IMG/VR virus record: IMGVR_UViG_3300028800_000050
Location: 1 to 37,203 of that record
Source: a virus
DNA length: 37,203 bases
Strand: one strand, 5' to 3'
Shown: positions 1,124 to 18,244 of the stretch, piece by piece
Position numbering within the stretch: the first letter of the stretch is position 1
Layout: each line of letters begins with the position of its first letter
Position numbers and translations under genes: made by a program
The notes under the pieces: model-generated
What the model saw: the letters and a program-made list of their open reading frames with translations, nothing else
Database searches by the model: none
What the model was told of the DNA's origin: nothing

Positions 1124-2704
1124 CTAGAATTGTCCTCCATATCCCCACCCCTGGTTAAATTGATTGTTCTCGCCAGTCACCCCAGCATAAATGGTAGAGG
1201 TTCGCTGATTTGCAAGTGTTACCAATGTTCTGCGCAAACATAAACGTTCTTGATTATCAAGTTCTGGCATTATTAATTGCACGCTATCAAGATCCATCTG
1301 GTCTTCAAATATTTTCTTTGCAGTTAGATATGATAGATATTGCCAAAGTTCTTCTAATTGAGGAACGGAAGTTGTCTGGAACAATTGCGTTGGTCTTGCA
1401 TCTACTTCAAAATTGATTGCATATGGTTGATCAGGAACAGGGCGCAGTGTAATCGTATTATTATGATATAACATTGCAAATGGTCGTGAAGGTATGGTTG
1501 GAACTGTTTGGCTATTAATCATCACACCAACTTGAGGCGCAACTGGAAATGTTACGACAAATTGTCCGGTGAGATAGTTAATGTAGTTATTGATATTAAC
1601 GCCAATAAACTTGGTAAACTGAATTGGCGATGTGCCGATTGCAGTTACAACATCAATTTGCTGCCATGAGGTGTTTGCATTTTGTGTTCCATTAATAACT
1701 TGAGTTGCACTTGCAGGAATAATTTGAGTTGTGAGATCATAATCCGTTGTTCGTGTAAGAACCCAATTGGTCGATCCGGATCCTAATGTAGTTACCGAAT
1801 AAATGCCATTTTGATAAGTAGTAGTTTGATCTTTAATTAAGATTCGATCATTTAAATTTGCTGCATATCCATCAATAGAAAAAGCTGCTTGAGTTCCGGC
1901 ATTAGTTAATGTAGCACCAACACCAGCAGTACCATTGGCATAGGTAACGGTAAGATTAGTACCAATCGTAGCCGCCTCAACAGGTGATATAATTGAAGTA
2001 GGAATGTAGGGTGCCGTTGCCAAAGGAGGTTGAATAGGACCTAATCCTTCTGGTGGCGCCGGTGGATTTGTTGGTTGTGTTCCGGCCACATAGAGATTAC
2101 CGTATATAGTCTCAATGCCAGTAGTAGCATCAAGAACAGGAACATCAACCATAGATAAACCATTGTTATTAACATCAATAGACGAAAATAGCACATTTCG
2201 CTTTAACAAGCTAAGTGAAGCATTATTAAGTTGATTATTAACTGTCCCACCAAACTGAACCGTACCAGCAAACGTAGTATTTATCCCATTACCGGTTACT
2301 CCGATACTCTGAATAAAATTATTAATGGGATAGTTAGCGTAGAATTCTTGGCGGTCTTGGGTATAAAAAGTTTCATAACCTGCAACATACACTGGTTTGT
2401 GGATTGCTAAATAGAGGTTCTGAAAGTTATACAACGGATTCAATCCAGCATTCGTTGCGCCACCAAAGCTTTGAATATCTAACTGGTATTCATCTTGATA
2501 TGGATTGCACCAGAACGTAAATGGTTGCCTTAACTGAAATGTTCTCAGTTGTGCAGGGAAATCATACAATACACACGTATTAATATAATTATTTAAATCA
2601 TCGGTTGTAAGTTGTGCTTCTGATGGTTTACGCGTTAGCCGACGCACCTTATTTTGTATTGCCGCAAGGGTATTGCCTGGTGGAAGTGTTGGATAAGTTG
2701 CCAT
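1124..2704 (-). CDS. Probable head-tail connector/adaptor protein with inserted fibre-like domain, 526 aa
   Basis: The start is taken at the ATG beginning MATYPTLPPG because GGAG lies nine bases before it; an in-frame start five codons upstream would overlap that site. Residues 1-130 (KVRRLTRKPSE, then DDLNNYINTCVLYDFPAQLR) and the C-terminal 150 residues look like one adaptor-type protein placed between capsid and tail hub. A different, beta-rich module occupies about residues 245-367 (GVGATLTNAGTQAAF, DRILIKDQTT, NGIYSVTTLG, TNWVLTRTTDYD), a repeat type usually met in phage fibre or surface proteins. The connector role is inferred from gene order; it could be another structural protein. Confidence 0.68.
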   Translation of the reverse strand: MATYPTLPPGNTLAAIQNKVRRLTRKPSEAQLTTDDLNNYINTCVLYDFPAQLRTFQLRQPFTFWCNPYQDEYQLDIQSFGGATNAGLNPLYNFQNLYLAIHKPVYVAGYETFYTQDRQEFYANYPINNFIQSIGVTGNGINTTFAGTVQFGGTVNNQLNNASLSLLKRNVLFSSIDVNNNGLSMVDVPVLDATTGIETIYGNLYVAGTQPTNPPAPPEGLGPIQPPLATAPYIPTSIISPVEAATIGTNLTVTYANGTAGVGATLTNAGTQAAFSIDGYAANLNDRILIKDQTTTYQNGIYSVTTLGSGSTNWVLTRTTDYDLTTQIIPASATQVINGTQNANTSWQQIDVVTAIGTSPIQFTKFIGVNINNYINYLTGQFVVTFPVAPQVGVMINSQTVPTIPSRPFAMLYHNNTITLRPVPDQPYAINFEVDARPTQLFQTTSVPQLEELWQYLSYLTAKKIFEDQMDLDSVQLIMPELDNQERLCLRRTLVTLANQRTSTIYAGVTGENNQFNQGWGYGGQF

Positions 2705-2792
2705 TAAATATATCTCCAATTTTTATTTTGAAGTTATCATGCTTCGTCCCCAAAAACAAATGCACAGGATTTATGCACTTTTTATTATGCCT

Positions 2793-3140
2793 CTATGTCG
2801 CCCTATATGGCAGAACATTTTGGGTAGCTGCAGTTAACATATCAGAATTCTCCCCGACGGGAACAACCATTGCGCAATTAATGTTTGAGTATGGCATGCT
2901 GTTACCGGGACCAGTTGGTATGGTGAACGTTGTAGAGCCTGTAACGGTGATGGGATACTGGATTCCAGCCACTGCTTGCATACCATTGGTTAATGGAATA
3001 TCCAATCGCACGATAGTTCCTGATATATATTGATGCGCAAAACTCGTCGTTATGGTGAGGGGATTACCACCTGTTATATTGGTTATAATGCGCATAGCAG
3101 GTTGGAATGCAGGATTCATCACCGCAATACAGACTGGCAT
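2793..3140 (-). CDS. Small virion protein with FCCH-like domain, 115 aa
   Basis: AAGGA lies before the ATG, and the start is four bases past the preceding gene's stop. The protein is almost entirely one beta-rich domain: RIITNITGGNPLTITTSFAHQYISG, IVRLDIPLTNGMQ, then PITVTGSTTFTI. The same pattern recurs in the middle of the 3796-4998 protein (KIVTDITQAATNAIVSTAVEH, VIRFNIPAASGM). I associate this pattern with phage proteins annotated as carrying a ubiquitin-activating E1 FCCH-like domain; no E1 activity is implied. A capsid decoration or head-completion role is plausible from its place downstream of the capsid gene. Confidence 0.62.
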   Translation of the reverse strand: MPVCIAVMNPAFQPAMRIITNITGGNPLTITTSFAHQYISGTIVRLDIPLTNGMQAVAGIQYPITVTGSTTFTIPTGPGNSMPYSNINCAMVVPVGENSDMLTAATQNVLPYRAT

Positions 3141-3142
3141 GA

Positions 3143-3694
3143 TTATCTTCCTTCTGCGTCGAGATTATAACGATTATCAAGGGGATTATGATACGTTGCT
3201 TGGACAATTGATCTACCGGTCGTATTTCCTACATCGACTGACCAGTCTAGAGGAATAAAGTTGGTGCGATGAACCTTACTTTGGATATATAGATTTTGAC
3301 CATCAATCAATTTACCGCCTTCAAGATTATGTTGGAATTCAGCGTACGCGCAACGATCGTTCAAATGCATAGCGACGCCTAAAGGAATAGTATGAATAGT
3401 GTCATGCTTCATAATATATGTAACGCGTGGATCACCAGGGAATTCACGATAGGTAAAGCGCAATTCGCCACCCGGGCATTCATTAAATAGAAACTTGCCC
3501 GTGACCATCTTTGATTTATGGGTCTTATCTTTTTCCCATTTTTCTTTAGCTGTTTTTTTGCGTACTTCGCGCTCGCTTAATGTAATAACTTCACGCGCTG
3601 GTATTTCATGACCTGCCGCCGTATTTTTTACCCGTTTATTTTTAGATGTTTCTTCATGAGTTGTTTCAACGAGTGATTTATCTTGCTCATTCAT
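3143..3694 (-). CDS. Uncharacterised head-region protein, 183 aa
   Basis: The chosen start (MNEQDKSLVE) has GGAG eight bases upstream; a longer in-frame start 17 codons earlier would put that site inside the gene. The first 80 residues are charged and probably disordered (many E, K, T). The rest is a compact beta-rich region with ELRFTYREFPGDPRVTY, HTIPLGVAMHLND and ENL-type turns. It lies in an unbroken run of virion genes downstream of the capsid gene. I do not recognise the family. A minor head or head-completion protein is the most likely role, by position only. Confidence 0.62.
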   Translation of the reverse strand: MNEQDKSLVETTHEETSKNKRVKNTAAGHEIPAREVITLSEREVRKKTAKEKWEKDKTHKSKMVTGKFLFNECPGGELRFTYREFPGDPRVTYIMKHDTIHTIPLGVAMHLNDRCAYAEFQHNLEGGKLIDGQNLYIQSKVHRTNFIPLDWSVDVGNTTGRSIVQATYHNPLDNRYNLDAEGR

Positions 3695-3795
3695 ATATAT
3701 CTCCGAGTTTTGGGGATGTGGCTCGGACCACATCCCTTTAATCAATCAACTATAGTCTTTTTTCAATCTGATATCTGATGTTAAATCAGCACTAA

Positions 3796-4998
3796 TTACA
3801 GGCCGCCAAAGTCAGCTTTACCTGCTACCCAGAACATAAGATCTTGGCTGGTAATAGCATTTCCTGCTGAATAAGTTACGGTCCCTGCAGGTCCAATAAT
3901 TGGCGTAGTCAGAACCGCGCCTCTTGCAGCACCAGATCCGAGAATCATGCCATAATAACCAGTATTGATAGTTGCATCGGCAAAAGTACCATTATTAGCA
4001 TTGTTAACCGGATTGCTTTGATATAATGGCGCAAGATTAATAGATGCACCTAATTCAAATGCAGTATTCATACCGACTGGCTCATACGTTGGGAACGATG
4101 ATGGCATCTGAGCTATAGTAGGCCATGTAAATGCCGTAAATGCTGACGTATTCGTATCAATGGTAAACGCATAAGCGCCAACAATATTCGTAACGGTCGC
4201 ATAAAGATAATTATTCTTTGGCGTTGGATTGAGTTGAGTCATACCCGAAGCGGCTGGAATGTTAAATCTAATTACTTGACCAACGGTCATAGAGTGCTCT
4301 ACGGCTGTCGATACAATGGCATTCGTCGCAGCCTGAGTAATATCCGTAACTATCTTGCGAGCAGGATAATATAGTGGTGGATAGTATACTTGTTGCCAAT
4401 AACCGCCCGTACCACCGCCTGTAGCTGTTGCTAAAGAATTAGTAGCATATAAAAGCGTGAAACTCGTATCAGTTGTTACTGAGCTAACGATAAAATCAAT
4501 ACCATTAACATCAGTAGCAGTAGTACCAAAAAGTCTAACAACACCGCCTACAAAAAGACCTGCTGTTGATCCAGTAGTAACCACAGGCTGTGTAGCACTA
4601 GAAACGGCCGTGACAGCTGTCGGAGTACCTAGAAGTGGTTGAGAATTAGCTTGTAAGCCAGTAGGATCATAAATGGTCATACCACCACTATTAAGAACAT
4701 CACCCGTCAAAGTCTGTCCACCAGTAGTATAATATTTAACAATCGCTTGACCGGGAGCCATTCCTCGTTGCCAGAAGAACTCTCTACCTATTACAGCATT
4801 TGCTGCTCCACCGTTAAAACGTGCAGTTGCTACGCCAGCCGTGCCAAACTGGGTAAAGTTTCTTACTGAAACCCAATCAGCAGCAGAAGGTATCTGAATA
4901 GTATATGCACTAGCAGAGTATACGGCGCCAGTTCCCGGAATGGGATTTGCAGTCAGATTAGCAAGAAATGATCCTTGGCTTAATATAGTTCCGTCCAT
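3796..4998 (-). CDS. Virion structural protein with FCCH-like domain, 400 aa
   Basis: AAGGAGATAAA precedes the ATG, and the start lies just after the capsid gene stop. The product is rich in T, A, G and V and appears beta-structured throughout. Residues 1-130 contain IQIPSAADWVSVRNFT and REFFWQRGMAPGQA; about 130-210 is a GTPT/VSSATQPVVTT repeat-like region; about 225-300 is the FCCH-like module shared with the 115-aa neighbour. Immediate linkage to the major capsid gene suggests an abundant head protein, such as a decoration or second capsid protein. This function is inferred, not seen. Confidence 0.66.
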   Translation of the reverse strand: MDGTILSQGSFLANLTANPIPGTGAVYSASAYTIQIPSAADWVSVRNFTQFGTAGVATARFNGGAANAVIGREFFWQRGMAPGQAIVKYYTTGGQTLTGDVLNSGGMTIYDPTGLQANSQPLLGTPTAVTAVSSATQPVVTTGSTAGLFVGGVVRLFGTTATDVNGIDFIVSSVTTDTSFTLLYATNSLATATGGGTGGYWQQVYYPPLYYPARKIVTDITQAATNAIVSTAVEHSMTVGQVIRFNIPAASGMTQLNPTPKNNYLYATVTNIVGAYAFTIDTNTSAFTAFTWPTIAQMPSSFPTYEPVGMNTAFELGASINLAPLYQSNPVNNANNGTFADATINTGYYGMILGSGAARGAVLTTPIIGPAGTVTYSAGNAITSQDLMFWVAGKADFGGL

Positions 4999-5007
4999 TT
5001 TATCTCC

Positions 5008-7412
5008 TTATGCGTTACCTAATGTGCAGCGAAGATTTAATAACCATTGGTCATTAAATATTCGAGGGACCATCGCTGCTTTCCAACCAACTGTTACGTT
5101 TTGTGCCAGTGGACCGGAATAGATTGCCGGACGATACACAAACGTACTGGTATAACCATCTTGACGAACAATACCATAAGCCTGCATACCAATAATAAAG
5201 TTATTATAGATGGTATTTCCCATGGATGAGCCACTGGTAATAGTCGGCGCTATGCTTGATACCAAGAATCTAACTGATCCAATTGAGCCCCATTCGGAAT
5301 CCAAAACGTTGCGATTGTTGGGATAGTTAGCCGACTGGATAAATCCTTGTACGTTATCAAGACCCTGGGAACCCGCCATATCAGTGTGGGTTAATCCAAA
5401 GTATGAACGACGCACTGGACCTGTACCAAATCGGTCTTCACCTTCAATGGCATCCATAATCGTATACGCATTAGCACCCAAAAGAGTGGTAACCGCGTCA
5501 TCAACGTCAAAACGTGACATTTCTGTTGGAATGTCGCCATTAAAACCCGCAACGCAGTTCAAGAAACTGGCTGTTGAAGCTAACATGTTTGAGGTGAGTT
5601 GATCTTCTGTTTGCAATTGTTACTATCAGAATTTTTCTGATGGATAAGTCATTTCTGCTTATCTCAAGACCTTTCGTTGTCTTGGTCGGAACATCACATC
5701 GTATTTCTACGTTCCAGGGTTTGTTCTCTCAGGCTGCATTTACGCTTGCCCCTTGTCGCCATTGCTTATGCTTTAGGCTTCCAAGTCAATTACCCAGAAT
5801 TTATACTGCGCCAAATTAACGCAGTGATACACCTAAACGGATTGCAGCTTCGTTTAATACCATTCTGTTACTTCAGCTTTCGCTTACTGACCCTTTCGGG
5901 CGGGCGCTTTCTCTACTTACGCCTCTCTATATTTCTATAGAGTTCAGAGCACCGCATCGTCTTTCGACGTCTTCTCGCTTGCTACGTTCACGCTGCACGG
6001 CTCGTTGCCTGCTTGCGCCTTGTTGCCTTCAGCATTACCTGGTAAGGGTTTCAAGTCCATCAGAGAAGATTTAACGACCCCATATTTGTTCAAATATATT
6101 AATTTCTGATAACAGTCTTCCCGAAAACTTAATTCTTCTGGAGAGATTCCTAAAATACAATGCTTGGTTGCCTTATATTTTTCACAAAACTCTAATAATT
6201 GTTTGGCATTCTCTTTCTTGAATCCCAAAAAAGGAATTATTTGTTTAAGGAAAACTATACTTTCTTCTCTAGAATAAATCCCAAATTGATAGTGGAAGCC
6301 ACCCATCGCAGACTTGTTTTTAGGAATATATAACTTACCTAAACAACAATTCTCTCTTAAATAATTTATAGCTCTGGCATCACACATAGATAGGCTAATT
6401 ACAGGCATGTATCTGGGATGAATAACAGAAGTACCTTTATTTTTATTCTGTCTTTTTATTGAAAACGAACCATCAGTATCCATTATCCCAGCAATATAAG
6501 ACCAAAATATAAGATCTGACGTATTCTGCTTTGCAAGTTTGGCTGAAATAGTATTATCAAAAGACTTCCAATCATTGTATTGGATCATCTTTATATAATG
6601 CCTCTCTCTGTCGGCAATCAAATCTGCGCTTAATGGAATCCCTCTTTTAAAGGTAAATTCTGTACAGAATTTCAGTAAAAACTCAGCACGATCTTTTTTA
6701 ATCTTTAAAAATGGGATCAATTCCTCTAATGCAGGCTTAACATTAATAGAAGACCTAAGCTTCCATCGAAATCTATTTTTACCAAACGAACCATCTTTAC
6801 ATTTCAATAATTTTCCAACAATAAAATTACCGCCAAACAAACCAATCATCTTTCTGATCATGCCTTCATCATGATTCTGAAGTTGCATTTCAGGATAATA
6901 CAAAGGACTGGCATTGGTCTTTAGCTTACCAATTCCAAAACTTCCATCTCCATCCATAACTCCAGCAGCATATGCCATATCTATATTCTTCCTATCCATG
7001 GTAACCCTTAGTTATATATTAATAATATAACGAAGTTTACATGGGTTTATTTAAAGAAGCAAGTTATCTAATTAATATAATTTAAACCTGTAATCTGTCT
7101 AGGGTCCTGGTTTTGAAGTGTTACCTGCTCATTTATGGCGACGTACGTTCCGTAAAAACTCATTTTTGCGTCAATATCAACTGCAGTTAAGTTTTGAGGC
7201 GGAGGTGTAATACCACTATTTCCAAGAGGAACGAGTGCTGGTTGGAGTGGATTATAACGACGCCATCTTTCCGTAGTACCACCATTTCTTTGCATTTGCA
7301 TTTTCATTGCAGGTAATGCAAAGATAAAGTTTGGTACAGGAACGGCTAATAGCTTTTTATTAAAAGATGCCTGAATTGGAGCAGGCAAACTCGAGGTAGT
7401 AGTTATTGCCAT
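5008..7412 (-). CDS. Major capsid protein, three exons (7412-7101, 5860-5819, 5613-5008) split by two group I introns
   Basis: Exon 1 (104 codons; ATG at 7412 with AAGGA upstream) ends in QVTLQNQDP. A 42-nt exon 2 encodes VLNEAAIRLGVSLR. Exon 3 (201 codons plus stop) starts QTEDQLTSNML. Joined, they give a 319-aa protein with the features I know from N4-gp56-type capsid proteins: RWRRYNPL, DPVLNEAA, TEDQL, GDIPTEMSRFDVDD, NAYTI, FGTGPVRRSYF, HTD, SIGSVRFLVSS, YRPAIYSGPLA. All junctions are phase 0. Without splicing, translation stops ten codons into intron 1, and the first three bases of intron 2 are a TAA. Scaffold and connector genes flank it. Apparent independent starts (7469, or a TTG at 5616) are artefacts. 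Confidence 0.92.
5614..5818 (-). ncRNA. Compact group I intron (intron 2, 205 nt, no ORF)
   Basis: The 5' splice site follows ACTGCGT. These seven exon bases pair with GCGCAGT seven bases into the intron, leaving the canonical U-G pair at the splice site (P1). The four bases just before that guide, TTTG, pair with CAAA, the first bases of exon 3 (P10). The intron ends in G, as group I introns do. Near the 3' end are three consecutive hairpins: AAGAC/GTCTT, GATAAG/CTTATC and TCAGAA/TTCTGA. It shares GGCRACAAGGSGCAAGC with intron 1, probably part of the P4-P6 core. I could not assign P3, P7 and P8 by eye. Confidence 0.88.
5861..7100 (-). ncRNA. Group I intron with endonuclease ORF (intron 1, 1240 nt)
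   Basis: Boundaries are set by capsid protein continuity (QNQDP joined to VLNEAA), by an exon ending in T and by an intron ending in G. The last 30 bases (AGCGAAAGCTG ... AGAATG) resemble the P9 end of cyanobacterial tRNA group IC3 introns as I remember it. P1 is imperfect: GACCCT against AGGTTT, with one mismatch and a U-A rather than U-G pair at the cut. A short P10 (GTA with TAC, directly before the guide) supports the register. The catalytic core lies in about 5861-6060 and overlaps the 3' end of the endonuclease gene. The 5' splice site is less secure than that of intron 2. Confidence 0.83.
5944..6999 (-). CDS. LAGLIDADG homing endonuclease encoded in intron 1, 351 aa
   Basis: Two LAGLIDADG motifs are visible: AYAAGVMDGDGSFGI (about residues 9-23) and SYIAGIMDTDGSFSI (about 165-180), each with its acidic residue, so one chain holds both half-domains. 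The expected role is to cut intronless capsid genes at the intron insertion site and spread the intron; a maturase role is possible. The ATG follows AAGGGTTACC. The last 35 or so residues (GNAEGNKAQAGNEPCS ...) are encoded by the ribozyme core and read like RNA-constrained sequence rather than protein fold. The frame is intact, so the enzyme is probably active. Confidence 0.92.
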   Translation of the reverse strand: MDRKNIDMAYAAGVMDGDGSFGIGKLKTNASPLYYPEMQLQNHDEGMIRKMIGLFGGNFIVGKLLKCKDGSFGKNRFRWKLRSSINVKPALEELIPFLKIKKDRAEFLLKFCTEFTFKRGIPLSADLIADRERHYIKMIQYNDWKSFDNTISAKLAKQNTSDLIFWSYIAGIMDTDGSFSIKRQNKNKGTSVIHPRYMPVISLSMCDARAINYLRENCCLGKLYIPKNKSAMGGFHYQFGIYSREESIVFLKQIIPFLGFKKENAKQLLEFCEKYKATKHCILGISPEELSFREDCYQKLIYLNKYGVVKSSLMDLKPLPGNAEGNKAQAGNEPCSVNVASEKTSKDDAVL

Positions 7413-7702
7413 GAATTTCCTTGAATAGAGGAAATGAATAGATTTGACACTGAGCTCGGTGAAACTCAAAAATTTACGACCTGATTAGGCGGGGTGAGTC
7501 CTCGATTTACGACCCCGATTTTTTGATAGTGAGTGACGCCTATCATTTACGACTCATGGCTAGATTAGAAATAATGTTGTCGAATTGCAAACTATTTAAA
7601 TGCCCCTTTGTTTGGTTTTTTCAAACAAAAGGGCTTTACATAATAAAGGAGGAAAATTCACGGATAAATTATTATCTGCGCGTTATCGGCAAATTATCGG
7701 CA
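7413..7702 (-). promoter_or_regulatory. Leader of the capsid gene: terminator-like hairpin and three ATTTACGAC sites
   Basis: This 290-bp stretch between scaffold and capsid genes has no convincing gene. Three copies of ATTTACGAC (GTCGTAAAT in the direction of transcription) lie at 7472-7480, 7505-7513 and 7545-7553. Upstream of them, 7602-7634 is a hairpin with 13 paired positions and one mismatch (GCCCCTTTGTTTG against CAAACAAAAGGGC). The arrangement suggests separate control of capsid transcription, the most demanded phage protein. No standard -35/-10 pair stands out. Confidence 0.45.
7602..7634. terminator. Hairpin between scaffold and capsid genes
   Basis: A 13-position stem with one mismatch closes a TTTTTT-containing loop. 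It is followed by ATTTAAAT leftward and by TTTAC rightward, so neither side has a full U tract. It may be a partial terminator for the scaffold transcript or a processing/stability element for capsid mRNA. Confidence 0.45.
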
Positions 7703-10562: not shown

Positions 10563-12674
10563 TTATGTAGCTACGCCAACTTGTTGATTTTGTTGGCTGT
10601 TCTGGTCATGCGAACGGGGCGATACAGCGGCTATAGCCTCGGCTTTCTTGTCCTCAGTAACGCCTTTATTAACCTGATCTTGTTGTTGCTGGCGCGCACT
10701 CAATAGGTTTTGAATACCAATTAATTGCTGTAAATGAGATAGATCGACTGTTTCTATCTCTTTCATAGCGCGCACTAATGACAACAGGCCCATATCTTGA
10801 TCCTTAATGGCCTCTGCTCTACGCTCAACCGCTAAGGCCTCATTCTCATCAACTCGTGATGCTCTTTCAATAGCCAAGCCTCTATTTGCTTCTGCGCGAG
10901 CTTCAATATCTTGTTTCTGCGCTTGAAGAAGTTCCATTTGGGGTTGTTGTTGCCGTTGTTGTTCTTGTTTTTGCTTGGCCAGGTTATCCAATATTCTTTT
11001 CTTATTTTGAATATTAGCTACTTCAAGTAGATCTTCTTCACTAAAGTTAATACCTGCTTCATTGCGTAGAGTAATCATCTGGGCTAGTTGCATTTGACGC
11101 TGGGTGGTTGTATTTAATCCTTCTTCGATAGCAACATGATAACGACCAAATGCTTTACTATAGAATTGTTGGGAAGGCTCTTCGTCTTCCAAAATTCGCT
11201 GTATTTTGCCAGGAGTAAAGTTAGTTTGAATCATGTCCATATGCAATTTTGCAAGAAGCGCTTGTGATCTGTCGAGCTGATCAAATACACCTTCAAGGGA
11301 ATTAACCGATGACTTCATACGAATCATAGCCAATATTCCCGGTACATCATCTGATGCCATACCCATAGCTTCTTCTGAAAGACCAGATATATAGTTCATT
11401 TCTTTAGCCAATGTCTCAGATATCTGCAATGTCGTCGGTGGTATTGCGGGTGAATCAATACGCTGGATATCAGACATCTGAGCATTTTGTTTTACAAATA
11501 ACGTTCTTCCCTGACCCGTTAAATAGGCATCATTAGGATTAACTAATGAGTTTTCTTTCATAATAAAGCCACTCGTTAATTGGCTTTCGAGTATATCAAG
11601 CTCTATCACTTTGCGTCGATTGTAACAATATTGCGCGTCCCTTAGACCACGAGTAATACCTTGTATTCTATTAGGGAAATCTACCATTTCAGGATGGAAA
11701 TAGCAGAAAACTGGCACAAAAGGGTACTGATCGGAACCTGAAGGATTTGGTCCAGAATAAATCACCTTACCCTGAATAACGAGTGCCATGTTTACGGTAG
11801 GTATCTCTTGTTTTATAAGCTCAATGCTAGGAGTATTATCAAGAATATAACGAAGTTTTTCTTTATCATTTGATTTCCATTCTATTACTTCACCAGTTTC
11901 ACGATCTGCCAACATGATCTGGGTTCTATAATCACGGTAATAATATTCATCATAGGTAAGTAAATCAGTAATTGCTGGATTATATGTTTCAGGGAGAAAT
12001 TGAAACTTTGCATCCCGGCCATTTACTGATGTATTTGATGTAAGAGACATGATTGTTTCTTCTTGATCTGGACATAAAGAAATACATTCTCGTTTGGTTA
12101 AAAATGATCGACGCCAAATATAATTACAATCTGATAGATCCTGTTTACGGAAGAATGGATCAATGAGGAATTGATTGAAAGCAAGTGCGTCGGTCTTTAT
12201 GTTGCCGGATACGGGGTCTTCTCTAAAATCCATATAGGTATGTAGTAACGTCATACCGGTAATTAATGACCCTAAAAATGCATCCGATATGGTATGAGAT
12301 AAACCATCTTGCTGATTAAGCCATAATAATATCTTGGTGAATTGATCTGCCGTGAGAGCATCGCCATTCTCTATAGGTGTTACCACTGAAGATTTGCGAT
12401 TACGCCGTTGATGTCCATCAACATTCTGTATTATAGGGCGTATGCGATTAAAGTTATATTGTTTGCGTCGACTTTCTGGAATGGATCCGCCGTATGATGA
12501 GGACCAAGCTGATTGGTTTCCTGCATAATATTCTATATCTTGATTGGCTTCATACCAGTAGGTCTGTCCAATAGAGATAGATTGTTCATAGGCGGTCTCC
12601 ATCATGCGAAGCACATTTCTGTGGGTTTCGTCCAAATAGAGTGGCGCCAACTGTGAATAGGGACTCGTTGACAT
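10563..12674 (-). CDS. Portal protein, 703 aa
   Basis: The portal is the dodecameric ring at one capsid vertex through which DNA is packed and leaves. The protein has the length and layout of large P22-like portals: an N-terminal QTYWYEANQDIEYYAGNQSAW, then RKQYNFNRIRPIIQNVDGHQRRNRKSSVV, DPFFRKQDLSDCNYIWRRSFLTK, PFVPVFCYFHPEM and RGLRDAQYCYNRRKVIELDI. The last 130 residues are a Q-rich coiled coil (QKQEQQRQQQPQMELL), likely the barrel region. AAAGGAAG precedes the ATG. Order relative to terminase and scaffold fits. Confidence 0.86.
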   Translation of the reverse strand: MSTSPYSQLAPLYLDETHRNVLRMMETAYEQSISIGQTYWYEANQDIEYYAGNQSAWSSSYGGSIPESRRKQYNFNRIRPIIQNVDGHQRRNRKSSVVTPIENGDALTADQFTKILLWLNQQDGLSHTISDAFLGSLITGMTLLHTYMDFREDPVSGNIKTDALAFNQFLIDPFFRKQDLSDCNYIWRRSFLTKRECISLCPDQEETIMSLTSNTSVNGRDAKFQFLPETYNPAITDLLTYDEYYYRDYRTQIMLADRETGEVIEWKSNDKEKLRYILDNTPSIELIKQEIPTVNMALVIQGKVIYSGPNPSGSDQYPFVPVFCYFHPEMVDFPNRIQGITRGLRDAQYCYNRRKVIELDILESQLTSGFIMKENSLVNPNDAYLTGQGRTLFVKQNAQMSDIQRIDSPAIPPTTLQISETLAKEMNYISGLSEEAMGMASDDVPGILAMIRMKSSVNSLEGVFDQLDRSQALLAKLHMDMIQTNFTPGKIQRILEDEEPSQQFYSKAFGRYHVAIEEGLNTTTQRQMQLAQMITLRNEAGINFSEEDLLEVANIQNKKRILDNLAKQKQEQQRQQQPQMELLQAQKQDIEARAEANRGLAIERASRVDENEALAVERRAEAIKDQDMGLLSLVRAMKEIETVDLSHLQQLIGIQNLLSARQQQQDQVNKGVTEDKKAEAIAAVSPRSHDQNSQQNQQVGVAT

Positions 12675-12706
12675 GTACTCTTCCTTTACAAGATCAGATT
12701 ATTGAT

Positions 12707-12718
12707 ATGACCTCGTAA
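12707..12718. promoter_or_regulatory. Near copy of the TACGACCTCGTAA motif upstream of portal
   Basis: ATGACCTCGTAA differs at one base from ACGACCTCGTAA in the palindrome at 1080-1095. It lies 33 bp before the portal start, in the gap after the 72-aa exported protein gene. Probable regulator site by repetition; function inferred. Confidence 0.35.
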
Positions 12719-12755
12719 GTGTAGAAAGAGATTATCTAGTAAGCAAACTTATAGA

Positions 12756-12974
12756 CTATTTAGTGTTGTCTGATTCATCAAATGGACTGATAACTTCATA
12801 ATAACTTACTTCTTCTTCCAAACTTTCTTCAGCTTCATAATAATCAGTGCGTTGTATAGTCGATTCATTGATACGATCATACTGCGAATAAATGATAACT
12901 CTGCGGTCATTGTCCAGAGAATTAGTAATAACTTGATGAGTCAAAATCAAGAAAAGAAGAACTAAACATGACAT
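12756..12974 (-). CDS. Small exported acidic protein, 72 aa
   Basis: AAGGATAATTT precedes the ATG. The first 15-18 residues (MSCLVLLFLILTHQV) are a short hydrophobic export signal with a cysteine at position 3; the mature part is strongly acidic and tyrosine-rich (DYYEAEESLEEEVSYYEV). The 5' end and leader of this gene are repeated twice upstream in 93-bp units, each copy giving a 26-aa peptide with the same signal. Secreted or periplasmic role; family not recognised. It may belong to a lysis or superinfection-exclusion group with the genes at 13245-14280. Confidence 0.55.
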   Translation of the reverse strand: MSCLVLLFLILTHQVITNSLDNDRRVIIYSQYDRINESTIQRTDYYEAEESLEEEVSYYEVISPFDESDNTK

Positions 12975-13171
12975 AAATTATCCTTATTACCATCCATAAA
13001 ATAGTATCTGAGGTATACATTTAACTTGATGAGTCAAAATCAAGAAAAGAAGAACTAAACATGACATAAATTATCCTTATTACCATCCATAAAATAATAT
13101 CTGAGGTATACATTTAACTTGATGAGTCAAAATCAAGAAAAGAAGAATTAAACATGACATAAATTATCCTT
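12930..13171. repeat. 93-bp tandem repeat, 2.6 copies
   Basis: Units start at 12930, 13023 and 13116; the last is cut at about 13171. Each unit combines the 5' end of the 72-aa gene (with its AAGGATAATTTATG) and a 36-nt piece identical to the 3' end of the 13245-13466 gene (13255-13290). The repeats therefore arose by unequal exchange across that gene border. Copies 2 and 3 encode 26-aa frames (12987-13067, 13080-13160) that begin with the same signal-like MSCL(V/I)LLFLILTHQV and end in CIPQILFYGW. Units differ by only two or three bases, so the expansion is recent. Confidence 0.9.
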
Positions 13172-13206
13172 AAAGAAAGGCCCCGGCCATGATGAGCAAC
13201 CGGGGC
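13172..13206 (-). terminator. Terminator after the 73-aa membrane protein gene
   Basis: Leftward reading gives GCCCCGG, a 13-base loop, CCGGGGC and then CTTTCTTTA. Strong seven-pair G+C stem with a T-rich tail. It separates the 13245-13466 gene from the tandem repeats. Confidence 0.72.
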
Positions 13207-13244
13207 TAATAATAGTGTGCGTAGCAACAATAATTATAAAGAGT

Positions 13245-13466
13245 CTAGAACATTTTACCATCCATAAAATAGTATCTGAGGTATACATTTGTGATGAAAA
13301 ATAACAAAACCCCACATACTATTTCAAGAGGACGGTTAATCATTGATAGATCTATGCGATAATCACATACATATACCGCTATAACGTGCCATAACGTTAG
13401 ATAAAATAACGTAGTACTGAATGATATAAATGTATGGTAAACCGCTTTGTATAATTGCTTATTCAT
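13245..13466 (-). CDS. Small membrane protein, two TM segments, holin-like, 73 aa
   Basis: Two hydrophobic stretches are clear: about residues 11-32 (FISFSTTLFYLTLWHVIAVYV) and 47-62 (LEIVCGVLLFFITNVYL), separated by a short polar loop with DYRIDLS. Size, two membrane spans and a charged tail are compatible with a class II holin, but there is no endolysin beside it, so the call is tentative. The ribosome binding site is weak (GAGCG). Its last 11 codons reappear in the 93-bp repeats downstream. Confidence 0.5.
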   Translation of the reverse strand: MNKQLYKAVYHTFISFSTTLFYLTLWHVIAVYVCDYRIDLSMINRPLEIVCGVLLFFITNVYLRYYFMDGKMF

Positions 13467-13480
13467 GACGCTCTAAATTA

Positions 13481-14047
13481 TTATAATGGACCAGTAGCAA
13501 CGCCACCAGCAATCCCACCAGCAATAGCGCCAGCTAAACTTGCAGCTTCAATTGCGGGACCAAAAGTACTCTCCAAAGCAATTATAGTCATAGGTGCCAA
13601 GGGACCAGTTAGCCCACCAATAATATAGATCGCACCATGCCCAGCGACACTTACCGCTATTTTCCCAACGAATGCACCAATCGTAGCGCCAATAGGGCCC
13701 TGATTTCTCTTAGTCGTACTAAAATAGCGCTTCTGAGTATCAGACATTTTGAATTTTGTGTTTTTATCGAAGCCTTTGTATTGAGAGGTAACTATTTTAG
13801 CCAGTTGCTTAGATTCTGATGTTTCATTACCTTCCAAAGTAGAATCTTTCTCATTTGAAGAAACAAATTTAGAAAGAGTGTTATTCTTAATCGTCTTGAA
13901 ATTCATGCCATTATAAACAGCATGCTTAATACCATTTTTATTGATGAAGGCTTTATGAATTATACCTTTTCCCTTCATTGCATCTGATGAGTTTGCTGAA
14001 AATAATAGAATTGCCGACAATAGAGCTATTGTTGTTTTATTAATCAT
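13481..14047 (-). CDS. Exported protein with C-terminal glycine-zipper membrane domain, 188 aa
   Basis: Residues 1-23 are a signal peptide (KTTIALLSAILLFSANSSDA). The middle is basic and polar. The last 75 residues are hydrophobic and small-residue rich with GxxxG-type spacing (GPIGATIGAFVGKIAVSVAGHGAIYIIGG, then LAGAIAGGIAGGVATG), like glycine-zipper membrane-inserting segments. AAGGATCAT precedes the ATG; this leader (GATTATCTAAGGATCAT) is nearly identical to that of the 14077-14280 gene. A membrane-disrupting or envelope-modifying role is possible. No known enzyme motif. Confidence 0.58.
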   Translation of the reverse strand: MINKTTIALLSAILLFSANSSDAMKGKGIIHKAFINKNGIKHAVYNGMNFKTIKNNTLSKFVSSNEKDSTLEGNETSESKQLAKIVTSQYKGFDKNTKFKMSDTQKRYFSTTKRNQGPIGATIGAFVGKIAVSVAGHGAIYIIGGLTGPLAPMTIIALESTFGPAIEAASLAGAIAGGIAGGVATGPL

Positions 14048-14076
14048 TATGATCCTTAGATAATCAATTGAATGTT

Positions 14077-14280
14077 TTAATTATTTGTTTTTTCTTGGAC
14101 AAGGTTACGAAGATCTTTTTTTTCTAGATTTTGACAATCTTTCTCGACAGACTTCAAATCTTTCTTATTTTTAATTGTTTGCTCAGACAAATTCTTTAGT
14201 TGAATAGTCTTGATCTTCAAATTGATATTTTGATTCAAAACCACGCTTGCTATGGTAAACATAAGAGCGAATGTAAACAT
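14077..14280 (-). CDS. Membrane-anchored coiled-coil protein, spanin-like, 67 aa
   Basis: Residues 2-15 are a hydrophobic N-terminal anchor (FTFALMFTIASVVL); residues 20-60 form a charged coiled coil (KTIQLKNLSEQTIKNKKDLKSVEKDCQNLEKKDL). Anchor plus periplasmic coil is the plan of inner-membrane spanins, though those are usually longer. AAGGATCATT precedes the ATG. With the holin-like and zipper proteins it makes a candidate lysis group; direct evidence is lacking. Confidence 0.5.
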   Translation of the reverse strand: MFTFALMFTIASVVLNQNINLKIKTIQLKNLSEQTIKNKKDLKSVEKDCQNLEKKDLRNLVQEKTNN

Positions 14281-14442
14281 AATGATCCTTAGATAATCAT
14301 TTAAATAGAGTAAATTATTTCCTCAGTGCTCATTTCTATACTCCTCTATTTAGATATGTCTATAGGCATCCCCCCGCTATAAAGTTAATGTTGCTTATTA
14401 ACTTTAACATAGCATAGCGAGATTCATTTATCAACATTTTGA

Positions 14443-14523
14443 TTAATGATACATCTTTCTAAACATAGTAAATATTGCGAGCAATATTACTATCATTGCC
14501 GCAATATATTCTTTCATAAACAT
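14443..14523 (-). CDS. Single-TM micropeptide, 24-26 aa
   Basis: The frame from ATG 14517 (or 14523) encodes KEYIAAMIVILLAIFTMFRKMYH: one hydrophobic span flanked by charges. The ribosome binding site is weak (AAAGATCC, distant), so expression may depend on the upstream gene ending at 14541. The rest of the 14281-14540 gap holds an eight-pair hairpin (AAAGTTAA/TTAACTTT near 14381-14405) and no other gene. Confidence 0.35.
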   Translation of the reverse strand: MFMKEYIAAMIVILLAIFTMFRKMYH

Positions 14524-14540
14524 TGATTACAATCGGATCT

Positions 14541-14867
14541 TTAATTTTTAATTTCATCTTTTTTACATCCATCGCATGAGCATGGCTTTAACAATACGCT
14601 TTCATGATTCTTTTTAACCCACTCACGCATAATATCATAGCCGGGATGGGTTTTCTCGACCATATCCCATGCAGGAAAAACACAAACGATATGATCAAAT
14701 ATACGTTGGTCATTTTCCTCTTCTGCTTCTTTAGTACGAATAATCATAGCCCCTGCTTCGGTTCGCTGGATATATTCAGTTGCTAGTTTAAAAGCTATAA
14801 AAGAAGTCATATGAAGAAGTTTTCGCTCTAGTTCTTCACGGGTATAAGTTGATAATATTTGTGTCAT
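14541..14867 (-). CDS. Uncharacterised small protein with C-terminal cysteine cluster, 108 aa
   Basis: AAGGATAGAAA precedes the ATG, which overlaps the previous stop (AATGA), so translation is coupled. The protein is helical and charged, with a C-terminal KPCSCDGCKK (CxCxxC) that could bind a metal. Family not recognised. It belongs to a run of three overlapping small genes just downstream of the large terminase. Confidence 0.6.
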   Translation of the reverse strand: MTQILSTYTREELERKLLHMTSFIAFKLATEYIQRTEAGAMIIRTKEAEEENDQRIFDHIVCVFPAWDMVEKTHPGYDIMREWVKKNHESVLLKPCSCDGCKKDEIKN

Positions 14868-15529
14868 TTTCTATCCTTCGAAAAATACTCCTGCATGAAT
14901 TCGCTGACAGATTTACCTGATTCTAGAGCAGTCATTAGCGCGGCCTCGTATTCATCTGATCTCGCTCGCTCTTCATCTTCAATCTTCTTCAGGAACCATT
15001 CAATTTCTTCGTCTTGCTCTTCGGGTGCAAAGCATTCTTTTTTGGTACACGGAAAAGCAAGAACTGTTCTACCTTCGCGCTGAAGACCAGCTATAACCTT
15101 TTGTTGTTCTTCATCTGATAAATGATTAAATTCAAAGCATTGGTTTGCTTTTCTATTTTCTGGCATTAAGTAAGTTATTTTACCCACAGGACTTTTATCA
15201 AGCTGACCATCTATGCTTTCTGGGCAATTAGGAACAAGTGAATTTATAATCGTCCGGCAATCGCTCAGATAAATATCATCATTTCCTTTACTCTTTTCGT
15301 AGATGCTTTTTGCAATAGCATTAACGTATTTACTTAAGATAATATGCGCTATCTTTAACTTGTCCTTTGCCTGTTGTTTTTGGACGTTTTCATCAAAAGT
15401 ATAACTAAAATCATATCTCTTATGTTTTATAGTTATGGATTTATCTTGCGTTAAAGAATCCTCAATAACATCGAACAAATCTTGCAATGCAGATTCGATG
15501 TTATTAGATAAATGATAAGATTTATTCAC
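14864..15529 (-). CDS. Uncharacterised protein, GTG start, 221 aa
   Basis: The start is a GTG preceded by AAGGATAATT and overlaps the end of the previous gene. Mainly helical and acidic; residues 75-100 (AHIILSKYVNAIAKSIYEKSKG) and the last 60 (EEIEWFLKKIEDEERARSDEYEAALMTALESGKSVSEFM) look amphipathic. Cysteines near FPCTKKECF and LVPNC. No family recognised. The position between terminase and the exported proteins gives no clear functional hint. Confidence 0.6.
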   Translation of the reverse strand: MNKSYHLSNNIESALQDLFDVIEDSLTQDKSITIKHKRYDFSYTFDENVQKQQAKDKLKIAHIILSKYVNAIAKSIYEKSKGNDDIYLSDCRTIINSLVPNCPESIDGQLDKSPVGKITYLMPENRKANQCFEFNHLSDEEQQKVIAGLQREGRTVLAFPCTKKECFAPEEQDEEIEWFLKKIEDEERARSDEYEAALMTALESGKSVSEFMQEYFSKDRK

Positions 15530-15848
15530 AATTATCCTTAAAGAAGTTTTTTTTCGCTTTGATCTCTTCTTCTACTAACATATTAACATTTATGGGGCTT
15601 ATATTTGCGAATCTATATCCTTCTAATTCGTTATTGAGTTTTTTTAAATCTCTATGAGCCTCAAATAATTCTTTTTTATAAGATTCAGCATTATAGTCAA
15701 TTAAACCTATTTGGGCAGCCAAATTTTGAAACCATAAATTAAGTTCTATTGTTGAAAACTCTTCATAAGAAATTCCCTCTAACTGCATCATTAAATTTTG
15801 AACGTTTTTTTCCAAATTTTCGTCGAAATCATACGCGAATTTTTTCAA
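15522..15848 (-). CDS. Uncharacterised helical protein, TTG start, 108 aa
   Basis: Reading starts at a TTG that overlaps the terminase stop (TTTTGA) with GGGAG seven bases upstream, inside the terminase C-terminus. The N-terminus KKFAYDFDENLEKNVQNLM resembles the KRYDFSYTFDENVQKQQ region of the next protein, suggesting related domains. A predicted coiled coil covers about residues 60-80. Function unknown. Confidence 0.55.
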   Translation of the reverse strand: MKKFAYDFDENLEKNVQNLMMQLEGISYEEFSTIELNLWFQNLAAQIGLIDYNAESYKKELFEAHRDLKKLNNELEGYRFANISPINVNMLVEEEIKAKKNFFKDNCE

Positions 15849-18244
15849 AACATTCTCCCATTAAATTTATTTCCCGTCCCACTGAATGGATTCGAACTAG
15901 TAAACGGATTATCAAAACCTTGTTCGCTACCATACATAACCTTGTTATAACCACGACGCGCATCTTCTTCGGTCATTCCTTGCTGATGCTGATCTAACGT
16001 AAGACACATATATCTAAAAGAATCACACCAATCGCTATGTTGATCGTGATACGGCTGCTGTTTATAGATTTTTTTACCGTCATCCCACTCACGGTGATAA
16101 GACTCTAATGCAACAATTAACTTAGCGCATTTCTGTTCATCAATATAAATACGACTAAACGAGGCCATAACCTTCTCAATGCCATCAGCAACAGAGACGC
16201 GTGGAGTGGCACTTACCATCTTGCCTTTATTCTCTCTAACTTCAAAGTTTAAACCTAGTTGGCGAGCCATCTCTATTCGCGTATGACCGGTTTGATAATC
16301 ATGTATCTCTATATCATGAGGACCGAAGTGCTTAGAATATACGTACTCTTTGGATTGTATGACTTTAATATAGTGATTCAATGGCTGGTTCGTATTGGCA
16401 TAACTGTCTATCACATGCACCAAATTATTTTTAGTTAATTGTCCAAAAACAATTACAGTTTGATCATTAAAACCTAGGTCCCATGCTGTAAATACAGGTA
16501 AGGACGGGTCATAAGGAACTTTGCCAATACGACCATCATTTCTCATTGCTAATACATAATTAGCATAAAAAGAACCTTCAACACCACGATCCCAGGAGCA
16601 ATTATGTACCGACCGACCGTTTATCAAATAACTTTCATCATATTGAACCGATAGATTATAAACTAATCCTTTAAATTTATATGTATCAATCGATCTTATA
16701 CGAGCTGCGATGCAATTTTTAGCTCTAATCAGTTGTGTTTCCTGATTTTTAACTCTTATGCCAGAAAAAGAAATGTGTACTTGATATGACTTTTGGCAAT
16801 TAATAGATCTGCCATCTATGATACCCTGGCATGCATCTCTAATAGATATTCCGGCTGCATATACGAGATTCAAGCTATTTGCTAGTAATTGGACCTGATA
16901 TGCCAATGTTTTACTCACCGTAGAATATATAAATCTTTCTTGGTTCTTATGGATGCCATGGGATCCATCTCCCTTCATAAGCTCATGGAAGAAATCTTCT
17001 TCGTGAGAACTAATTAAATGAAATGGGATTCGTTTGTTGTTGGCCATTAGCCCACAACTCGATTTAAAGAAATCAGCAAGCTGGACTGAATTAACTTGAA
17101 CTACGCTCATTGAATCGGTAACCGAAATAGCGTAAGGCAACCCTAATGACTTTAAATATTCGATAATTATAGGAGCTTCATCGTGTATTATTGAAAACTG
17201 CGCTGCATTATTCATGCAAGAACCTTCTGTAATATACCATGCCAGTAACATACAAAGCTCATGAGATATTACTGGATATTCTCCTAATGTCATTTTGGGA
17301 AACACAACTCTATCATCTTCCGTAATTTTGCGGGCTTCTTTCCATTCGTAAGATTGAGTAGATGAATGATATATTCTTAGGGGATGATTAGGCGTACAAA
17401 TAATATTTTCACCAGAACCAAAGGATGATATCTCGATTAAATCCCCTTCATATTCTCTAGAAATAACATCCAGAACCTTTCTTAATCTACCTGAGTGAGA
17501 TACAACCAGATCATCCCTACAAATCATCTCAATAGATTTTGATTCACGATCTGTCAATACTTGTTGCCCAGCAGGAAAACAATAGTATTCTTGTTGGATG
17601 AACTCTTCTGAATGTATAAGGCGCTCTTTATCAAGCGCCTCTTGCGTTATATGTTTTGTATCATCGACAGTAATACGATAACGCCACCAATCTGGCCACT
17701 GTTTGGCTCTTTCCCATAAATCATAAAAATGATTGCGTCCCAATGGGGTAGATATAAAGACAATTTTCCCTCCATTAGCTGCTACAATCGGCGAAGCAAA
17801 CTCAAAAGCACGATAGTCAGCACGGCTAAACTCAGAGAATATAATAAGAGTAGCGTTAGAACCAACAACTGAGGTATCATACTTATCCGATCCACGTAAT
17901 TGGATGACACTATTGTTCATCAAGGTAATCTTAAGTTCGGTAGCATTCATAGACTTGATAAGTTCTGGTGGAATCAGATCCAAGAAGCGCGTCCCATCAT
18001 TGCTTATCGCATCCCATATGACACTTCGTGCCTGTCTAAATTGGGGCAAGAAGTACAGAACCGTCGTGGTCTTTCTCAATGCCCAACGAATAGCAAAGTT
18101 CCACGCCATATAATCCTTACCCAAACGGCGCGGGCCCACAAAAATAGCAGCTCGGTATTTGTTACTATTCTCCATAGCCTCAAAAAAGGGAATTTGATAA
18201 CTACGAGGGATGAACTTATCTAGTTTGATCATAGAGAAATCCAT
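15845..18244 (-). CDS. terL: Terminase large subunit interrupted by an intein, 799 aa precursor
   Basis: The packaging motor: an N-terminal ATPase and a C-terminal nuclease. The ATPase shows a P-loop FVGPRRLGKD (residues 35-44, with D where S/T is usual) and a Walker B-like LIIFSEFS (133-140). The nuclease shows FTAWDLGFND (585-594), EIHDYQTG and QHSDWCDSFRYM (735-746), the expected acidic residues of the RuvC-like fold. Residues 222-548 are an intein; splicing leaves a 472-aa terminase joined as QQEYY-CSWDRGVEG, a normal length. The ribosome binding site is weak. Confidence 0.92.
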   Translation of the reverse strand: MDFSMIKLDKFIPRSYQIPFFEAMENSNKYRAAIFVGPRRLGKDYMAWNFAIRWALRKTTTVLYFLPQFRQARSVIWDAISNDGTRFLDLIPPELIKSMNATELKITLMNNSVIQLRGSDKYDTSVVGSNATLIIFSEFSRADYRAFEFASPIVAANGGKIVFISTPLGRNHFYDLWERAKQWPDWWRYRITVDDTKHITQEALDKERLIHSEEFIQQEYYCFPAGQQVLTDRESKSIEMICRDDLVVSHSGRLRKVLDVISREYEGDLIEISSFGSGENIICTPNHPLRIYHSSTQSYEWKEARKITEDDRVVFPKMTLGEYPVISHELCMLLAWYITEGSCMNNAAQFSIIHDEAPIIIEYLKSLGLPYAISVTDSMSVVQVNSVQLADFFKSSCGLMANNKRIPFHLISSHEEDFFHELMKGDGSHGIHKNQERFIYSTVSKTLAYQVQLLANSLNLVYAAGISIRDACQGIIDGRSINCQKSYQVHISFSGIRVKNQETQLIRAKNCIAARIRSIDTYKFKGLVYNLSVQYDESYLINGRSVHNCSWDRGVEGSFYANYVLAMRNDGRIGKVPYDPSLPVFTAWDLGFNDQTVIVFGQLTKNNLVHVIDSYANTNQPLNHYIKVIQSKEYVYSKHFGPHDIEIHDYQTGHTRIEMARQLGLNFEVRENKGKMVSATPRVSVADGIEKVMASFSRIYIDEQKCAKLIVALESYHREWDDGKKIYKQQPYHDQHSDWCDSFRYMCLTLDQHQQGMTEEDARRGYNKVMYGSEQGFDNPFTSSNPFSGTGNKFNGRMF
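16601..17581 (-). other. Intein with LAGLIDADG endonuclease domain inside terL, 327 aa
   Basis: It begins with Cys222 (CFPAGQQVLTD, block A), has a block B with the TxxH motif (NIICTPNHPLRI), two LAGLIDADG-like helices (CMLLAWYITEGSC at 331-343 and FFHELMKGDGSHG at 418-430), block F (YNLSVQYDESYLINGRSV) and ends His547-Asn548, with Cys549 as the first downstream residue. All catalytic residues for splicing are present, and both endonuclease motifs keep an acidic residue (E340, D426), so it is likely active in both roles. The insertion site lies between the ATPase and nuclease domains at a conserved segment. Confidence 0.95.

Follow-up and report, generated by a model that had tools for sequence, protein, structure and literature searches.

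Why does the large terminase (TerL) gene of this virus run on, in one open frame, through a segment that divides its ATPase half from its nuclease half, and does that segment behave as a mobile element or as a timer of DNA packaging? The window, by which we mean the whole 37,203-nucleotide stretch analysed (IMGVR_UViG_3300028800_000050), holds on its minus strand a terL precursor reading frame (15845..18244; 799 aa plus stop, no internal stops) that comprises an N-extein, an intein and a C-extein, as assigned from the translation together with PHROG and fold matches. The N-extein (aa 1–221; 17582..18244, minus) is a terminase ATPase domain according to Pfam Terminase_6N (29.9 bits), a PHROG terminase match, alignment and a fold match to the P74-26 ATPase, and it carries the motifs GPRRLGKD (Walker A-like), LIIFSE (Walker B-like) and ISTP (motif III). 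The C-extein (aa 549–799; 15848..16600, minus) begins with the Cys+1 residue (CSWDRG) and is an RNase H-like nuclease domain by PHROG, alignments and a fold match to the P22 nuclease; the nuclease acidic residues sit in WDLG, PHDIE and HSDWCDSFRY, and precursor residues 549–756 match phrog_2472, phrog_10250 and phrog_5653, which are terminase C-termini or nuclease-half families. Both hallmarks of a TerL, the ATPase motifs and the nuclease acidic residues, are thus present, and Pfam, PHROG and fold comparisons all bear out an earlier sequence-only reading that had placed terminase ATPase and nuclease halves on either side of an insert. Elsewhere in the window we observed a free-standing HNH endonuclease-like reading frame (5944–6999, minus; 351 aa, phrog_5046) near putative tail genes, and, upstream of the portal gene, a tandem repeat of ~93 bp (~12929–13290) that showed as offset self-matches with blastn.

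The insert itself spans aa 222–548 (327 aa; 16601..17581, minus), and alignment shows that joining the exteins yields a mature TerL of 472 aa; both sizes are exactly those given in the sequence-only reading. This segment matches the Pfam Intein_splicing model at 37.1 bits (cut-off 35.8), with weak matches to intein N- and C-terminal models. The splicing residues claimed earlier are all in place, namely Cys1 (CFPAG), a block B T63-P-N-H66, a terminal His326-Asn327 and Cys+1. Across the family of 12 distinct full-length inteins described below, C1, T63, H66, D205, H326 and N327 are invariant (12/12), so that the nucleophile Cys1, the block B TxxH and the C-terminal junction H326-N327/C (slashes mark junctions here and below), all as in class 1 inteins, are common to every member. 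One feature absent from the earlier reading is the residue at block F:4, which is Asn309 in the window intein and invariant in all 12 members, while this position is commonly Asp, Cys or Trp (PMC4031507). Because F:4 is a less conserved assisting position, neither defining nor obligatory, Asn309 is no bar to class 1. Assignment to class 3, marked by an F:4 Cys and the WCT triplet, was considered and rejected, since F:4 is Asn309, Leu68 follows H66-P67 and Val325 precedes the penultimate His. Residues, Pfam matches, family alignment and predicted fold together confirm, at the level of sequence and model, a class 1 intein with a HINT splicing domain and a nested LAGLIDADG endonuclease between the TerL ATPase and nuclease domains.

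The AlphaFold model of the intein alone has a mean pLDDT of 91.9, and both this predicted structure and its fold matches point to a HINT domain. It aligns end-to-end with the TliVMA intein (7qsu/7qss; Z 27.3, 299 residues, 3.4 Å) and similarly with PI-PkoII (2cw7; Z 27.0), two archaeal inteins that likewise combine a splicing domain with a LAGLIDADG endonuclease (Z ~27 over 298–310 residues) at ~20% identity to the window intein; PI-PkoII has the usual Asp where the linker-site family has Asn309. The splicing part alone matches mini-inteins and the hedgehog autoprocessing domain with Z 16–20. The model of the whole precursor has a lower pLDDT (76.9) and a low pTM, and matches full inteins, D6E, the P74-26 and T4 terminases and the P22 nuclease domain. 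Within the endonuclease, the family alignment locates a first LAGLIDADG motif, LCMLLAWYITEGSC, at intein aa 109–122 (17216..17257, minus), with the acidic residue E119, and a second, FFHELMKGDGS, at aa 197–207 (16961..16993, minus), with the acidic residue D205. The two motifs (LLAWYITEG and FFHELMKGDG) had been described as intact-looking, and their acidic positions are kept throughout the family: the first is Asp rather than Glu in two members, and D205 is conserved in 12/12.

To see the site without its insert, we compared 103 terminase relatives, which were found in viral contigs as well as in bacterial genomes and chosen by similarity. None has an insert at the linker junction, although several are too divergent for confident alignment there, and intein frequency cannot be read from this sample, as similarity decided which intein-free sequences entered it. 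Both terminase halves could be aligned in 86 of the 103, with at most 27 extra nucleotides between them and mostly 0. In the nearest terminases that we found, L003 and L011, whose exteins are 70% identical to those of the window, the halves are contiguous, the empty junction reading EEFIQQEYF/SSFDRG and EEFIAQEWF/CSFDRG, respectively. Homologues in which the segment forms part of the terminase, named by the sequence-only reading as an outcome that would speak against an intein, were not what we found; the homologues lack it. The +1 position is Cys in 87/103 relatives, and therefore the +1 nucleophile of the intein is the terminase's own conserved linker cysteine. Several intein-free near relatives (L003, L014, L015 and L018) have Ser or Thr instead, which are possibly altered target sites. 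We found no two near-identical phages of which one has the intein and the other lacks it, hence no single homing event was seen directly, and a near-identity DNA search of phage records returned no match. One further contig, L002 (IMGVR_UViG_3300029957_000217), is 100% identical to window positions 10848–16498, the same phage assembled twice, and ends inside the C-extein, 102 bases before the intein junction. We considered whether mixed alleles had broken the assembly at this point; such a break would be expected exactly at the junction, and the contig end is uninformative in this respect.

Inteins at the same site could be detected in other viral terminases. Scanning IMG/VR with the single intein sequence gave no match, and neither did an over-strict N-junction pattern, but a DNA pattern at the C-junction (Asn-Cys followed by the terminase motif) revealed homologous, identically placed inteins in two terminases. 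With an alignment of these two inteins and that of the window as query, and with duplicates merged, the family grew to 12 distinct full-length inteins including that of the window, plus one partial, all located at the linker cysteine (QEY/Cys). Its other members are uncatalogued inteins in IMG/VR terminases (L124, L125, L126, L128–L131 and L133–L137, with L135 the partial one). They are 36–62% identical to the window intein and possess all key residues, while the C-exteins of their terminases are only 19–47% identical to that of the window; the most distant, L133, was confirmed as a terminase by PHROGs.

Four of these terminases carry one or two extra inteins at other TerL sites. L128 (IMGVR_UViG_3300022874_000030, 2500–6915) has a 1472-aa terminase reading frame with apparently three inteins, before Walker B (PD/C..GN/SIVGTN), at the linker Cys and in the last nuclease motif (HA/C..VSN/CDALRY); L130 (IMGVR_UViG_3300046360_000144, 3222–7499; 1426 aa) also appears to have three, in the P-loop (MPRR/C..VHN/SGKD), at the linker Cys and in the last nuclease motif (HI/C..VHN/CDALRY). 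Two-intein terminases are seen in L126 (2393–5743; linker and pre-Walker B) and L136 (493–4017; linker and motif III, as in Microcystis phage Mic1). We also noticed that phrog_36001, listed with function unknown, spans the extein-intein N-junction in L124, L128, L130, L133 and the window TerL. It was probably built on a terminase bearing a same-site intein, and these matches therefore suggest that proteins with same-site inteins are probably already in public phage data, unrecognised.

The inteins and their hosts do not share one history. Intein identity exceeds C-extein identity in 51/66 pairs, for example 62% against 42% for the terminase in one comparison and 50% against 19% for the distant terminase L133. 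In a tree of 28 exteins, intein presence requires 9 changes, equal to the number for shuffled labels, and the AU test rejects a single clade of intein-bearing terminases (p = 0.0002). The terminase of the window clusters with the intein-free L003 and L011 (support 100/100). Conversely, the intein tree rejects the pairing of L124 with L129 found in the extein tree (p = 4e-7), where the branch holding both has a support of 93/91. The intein has a lower GC content than its flanks in 12/12 members. Taken together, these sequence comparisons indicate that the linker-site intein is a homing, horizontally moving element.

Our preferred reading, which we hold to be very probable on sequence and structural modelling, is that a LAGLIDADG-bearing class 1 intein at the TerL linker cysteine splices itself out and spreads by homing. 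The precursor would be synthesised as a single 799-aa chain, in which, judging from residues and fold, the acyl transfers would be driven by Cys1 together with the linker Cys (+1) that the terminase itself supplies, and Asn327 would cyclise, releasing the 472-aa terminase and the 327-aa intein. Motif conservation and phylogeny suggest that, in a co-infected cell, the freed intein could then cleave the junction sequence of terL alleles that lack an intein, after which repair would copy the intein into the cut allele. The intein would persist because exact splicing alone restores the essential TerL; any effect on packaging timing would be secondary. If the endonuclease had already become inactive while splicing stayed intact, one would see a decaying intein, and the divergent motifs (YITEG, LMKGDG) and a Hom_end match that lies under the Pfam cut-off fit such a state; yet the acidic positions E/D119 and D205 are kept in 12/12 homologues, down to 36% identity, and a complete LAGLIDADG fold is predicted, which makes decay unlikely. 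That the segment is no intein at all, and instead a terminase-specific domain or an intron, is exceedingly improbable: the frame is open throughout, we found no support for this idea, intron families in Rfam gave no match to the window, and the exact absence of the segment from homologues, along with its predicted HINT and endonuclease fold, refutes it.

The sequence-only reading had further proposed that conditional splicing times packaging. That unspliced TerL would be unable to package is a sound inference from the sequence, and slow or conditional splicing, responsive to redox, DNA or temperature, might in principle time the assembly of active TerL and hence packaging. Insertion at the domain junction of an essential motor and the atypical Asn at F:4 throughout the family lend this idea some appeal, and it is not new, having been published for the Mic1 TerL inteins, which were proposed to control packaging (PMC7156551), and, more generally, by Kelley et al. 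(PMC5050341). However, the sequence holds no conserved candidate switch, the penultimate His is canonical, close relatives function without the intein, and a conserved endonuclease with a scattered distribution fits a homing element. A conserved regulatory disulfide was considered and discarded, as Cys1 alone is invariant among the intein cysteines. Published tests also fit homing: five of five mycobacteriophage TerL inteins tested spliced readily, and two cleaved intein-free alleles (PMC5050341). Since timing has already been proposed for Mic1 while these five spliced readily, a timer is possible but unsupported, and we consider a regulatory intein improbable. Asn at F:4 might slow or tune splicing family-wide; that it does so to the point of leaving terminase unspliced early and delaying packaging, a selfish element turned timer, seems to us slightly more doubtful still.

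Phage terminases are known intein targets, and the linker-site family can be placed among them. The mycobacteriophage inteins (TerL1-a to -e, TerL6-f and Pham3880-g; Kelley et al. 2016, PMC5050341) are also mobile inteins in large terminases, active in splicing and, where tested, as endonucleases. Within the ATPase domain, their sites a–f fall at or close to the P-loop, a helix, Walker B or the C-motif, whereas the window site (QEYY/C) lies past motif III and ahead of the nuclease; Pham3880-g sits at the C-terminal end of the ATPase in a terminase-like protein (ScottMcG gp245; PMC5050341) and might coincide with the linker site. Mic1 TerL also has inteins, in motif III (LLTG/C..SHN/TPKGYG) and in the last nuclease motif (DHL/C..VSN/CDALRY), and the linker site differs from both (PMC7156551). 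The linker site is thus by sequence distinct from the mycobacteriophage sites a–f and the Mic1 sites. TerL of Delta-group crAss-like phages typically has an intein, and one has two, described as of the Hint-Hop type (PMC7886860). The empty and filled terL alleles now at hand allow the homing and timer ideas to be tested, and the conserved Asn at F:4 and the three-intein terminases are testable oddities. What this family adds to the known systems is a defined ATPase-nuclease linker site with 12 distinct full-length members, which clearly show that the intein has moved sideways from one terminase to another, distant one.
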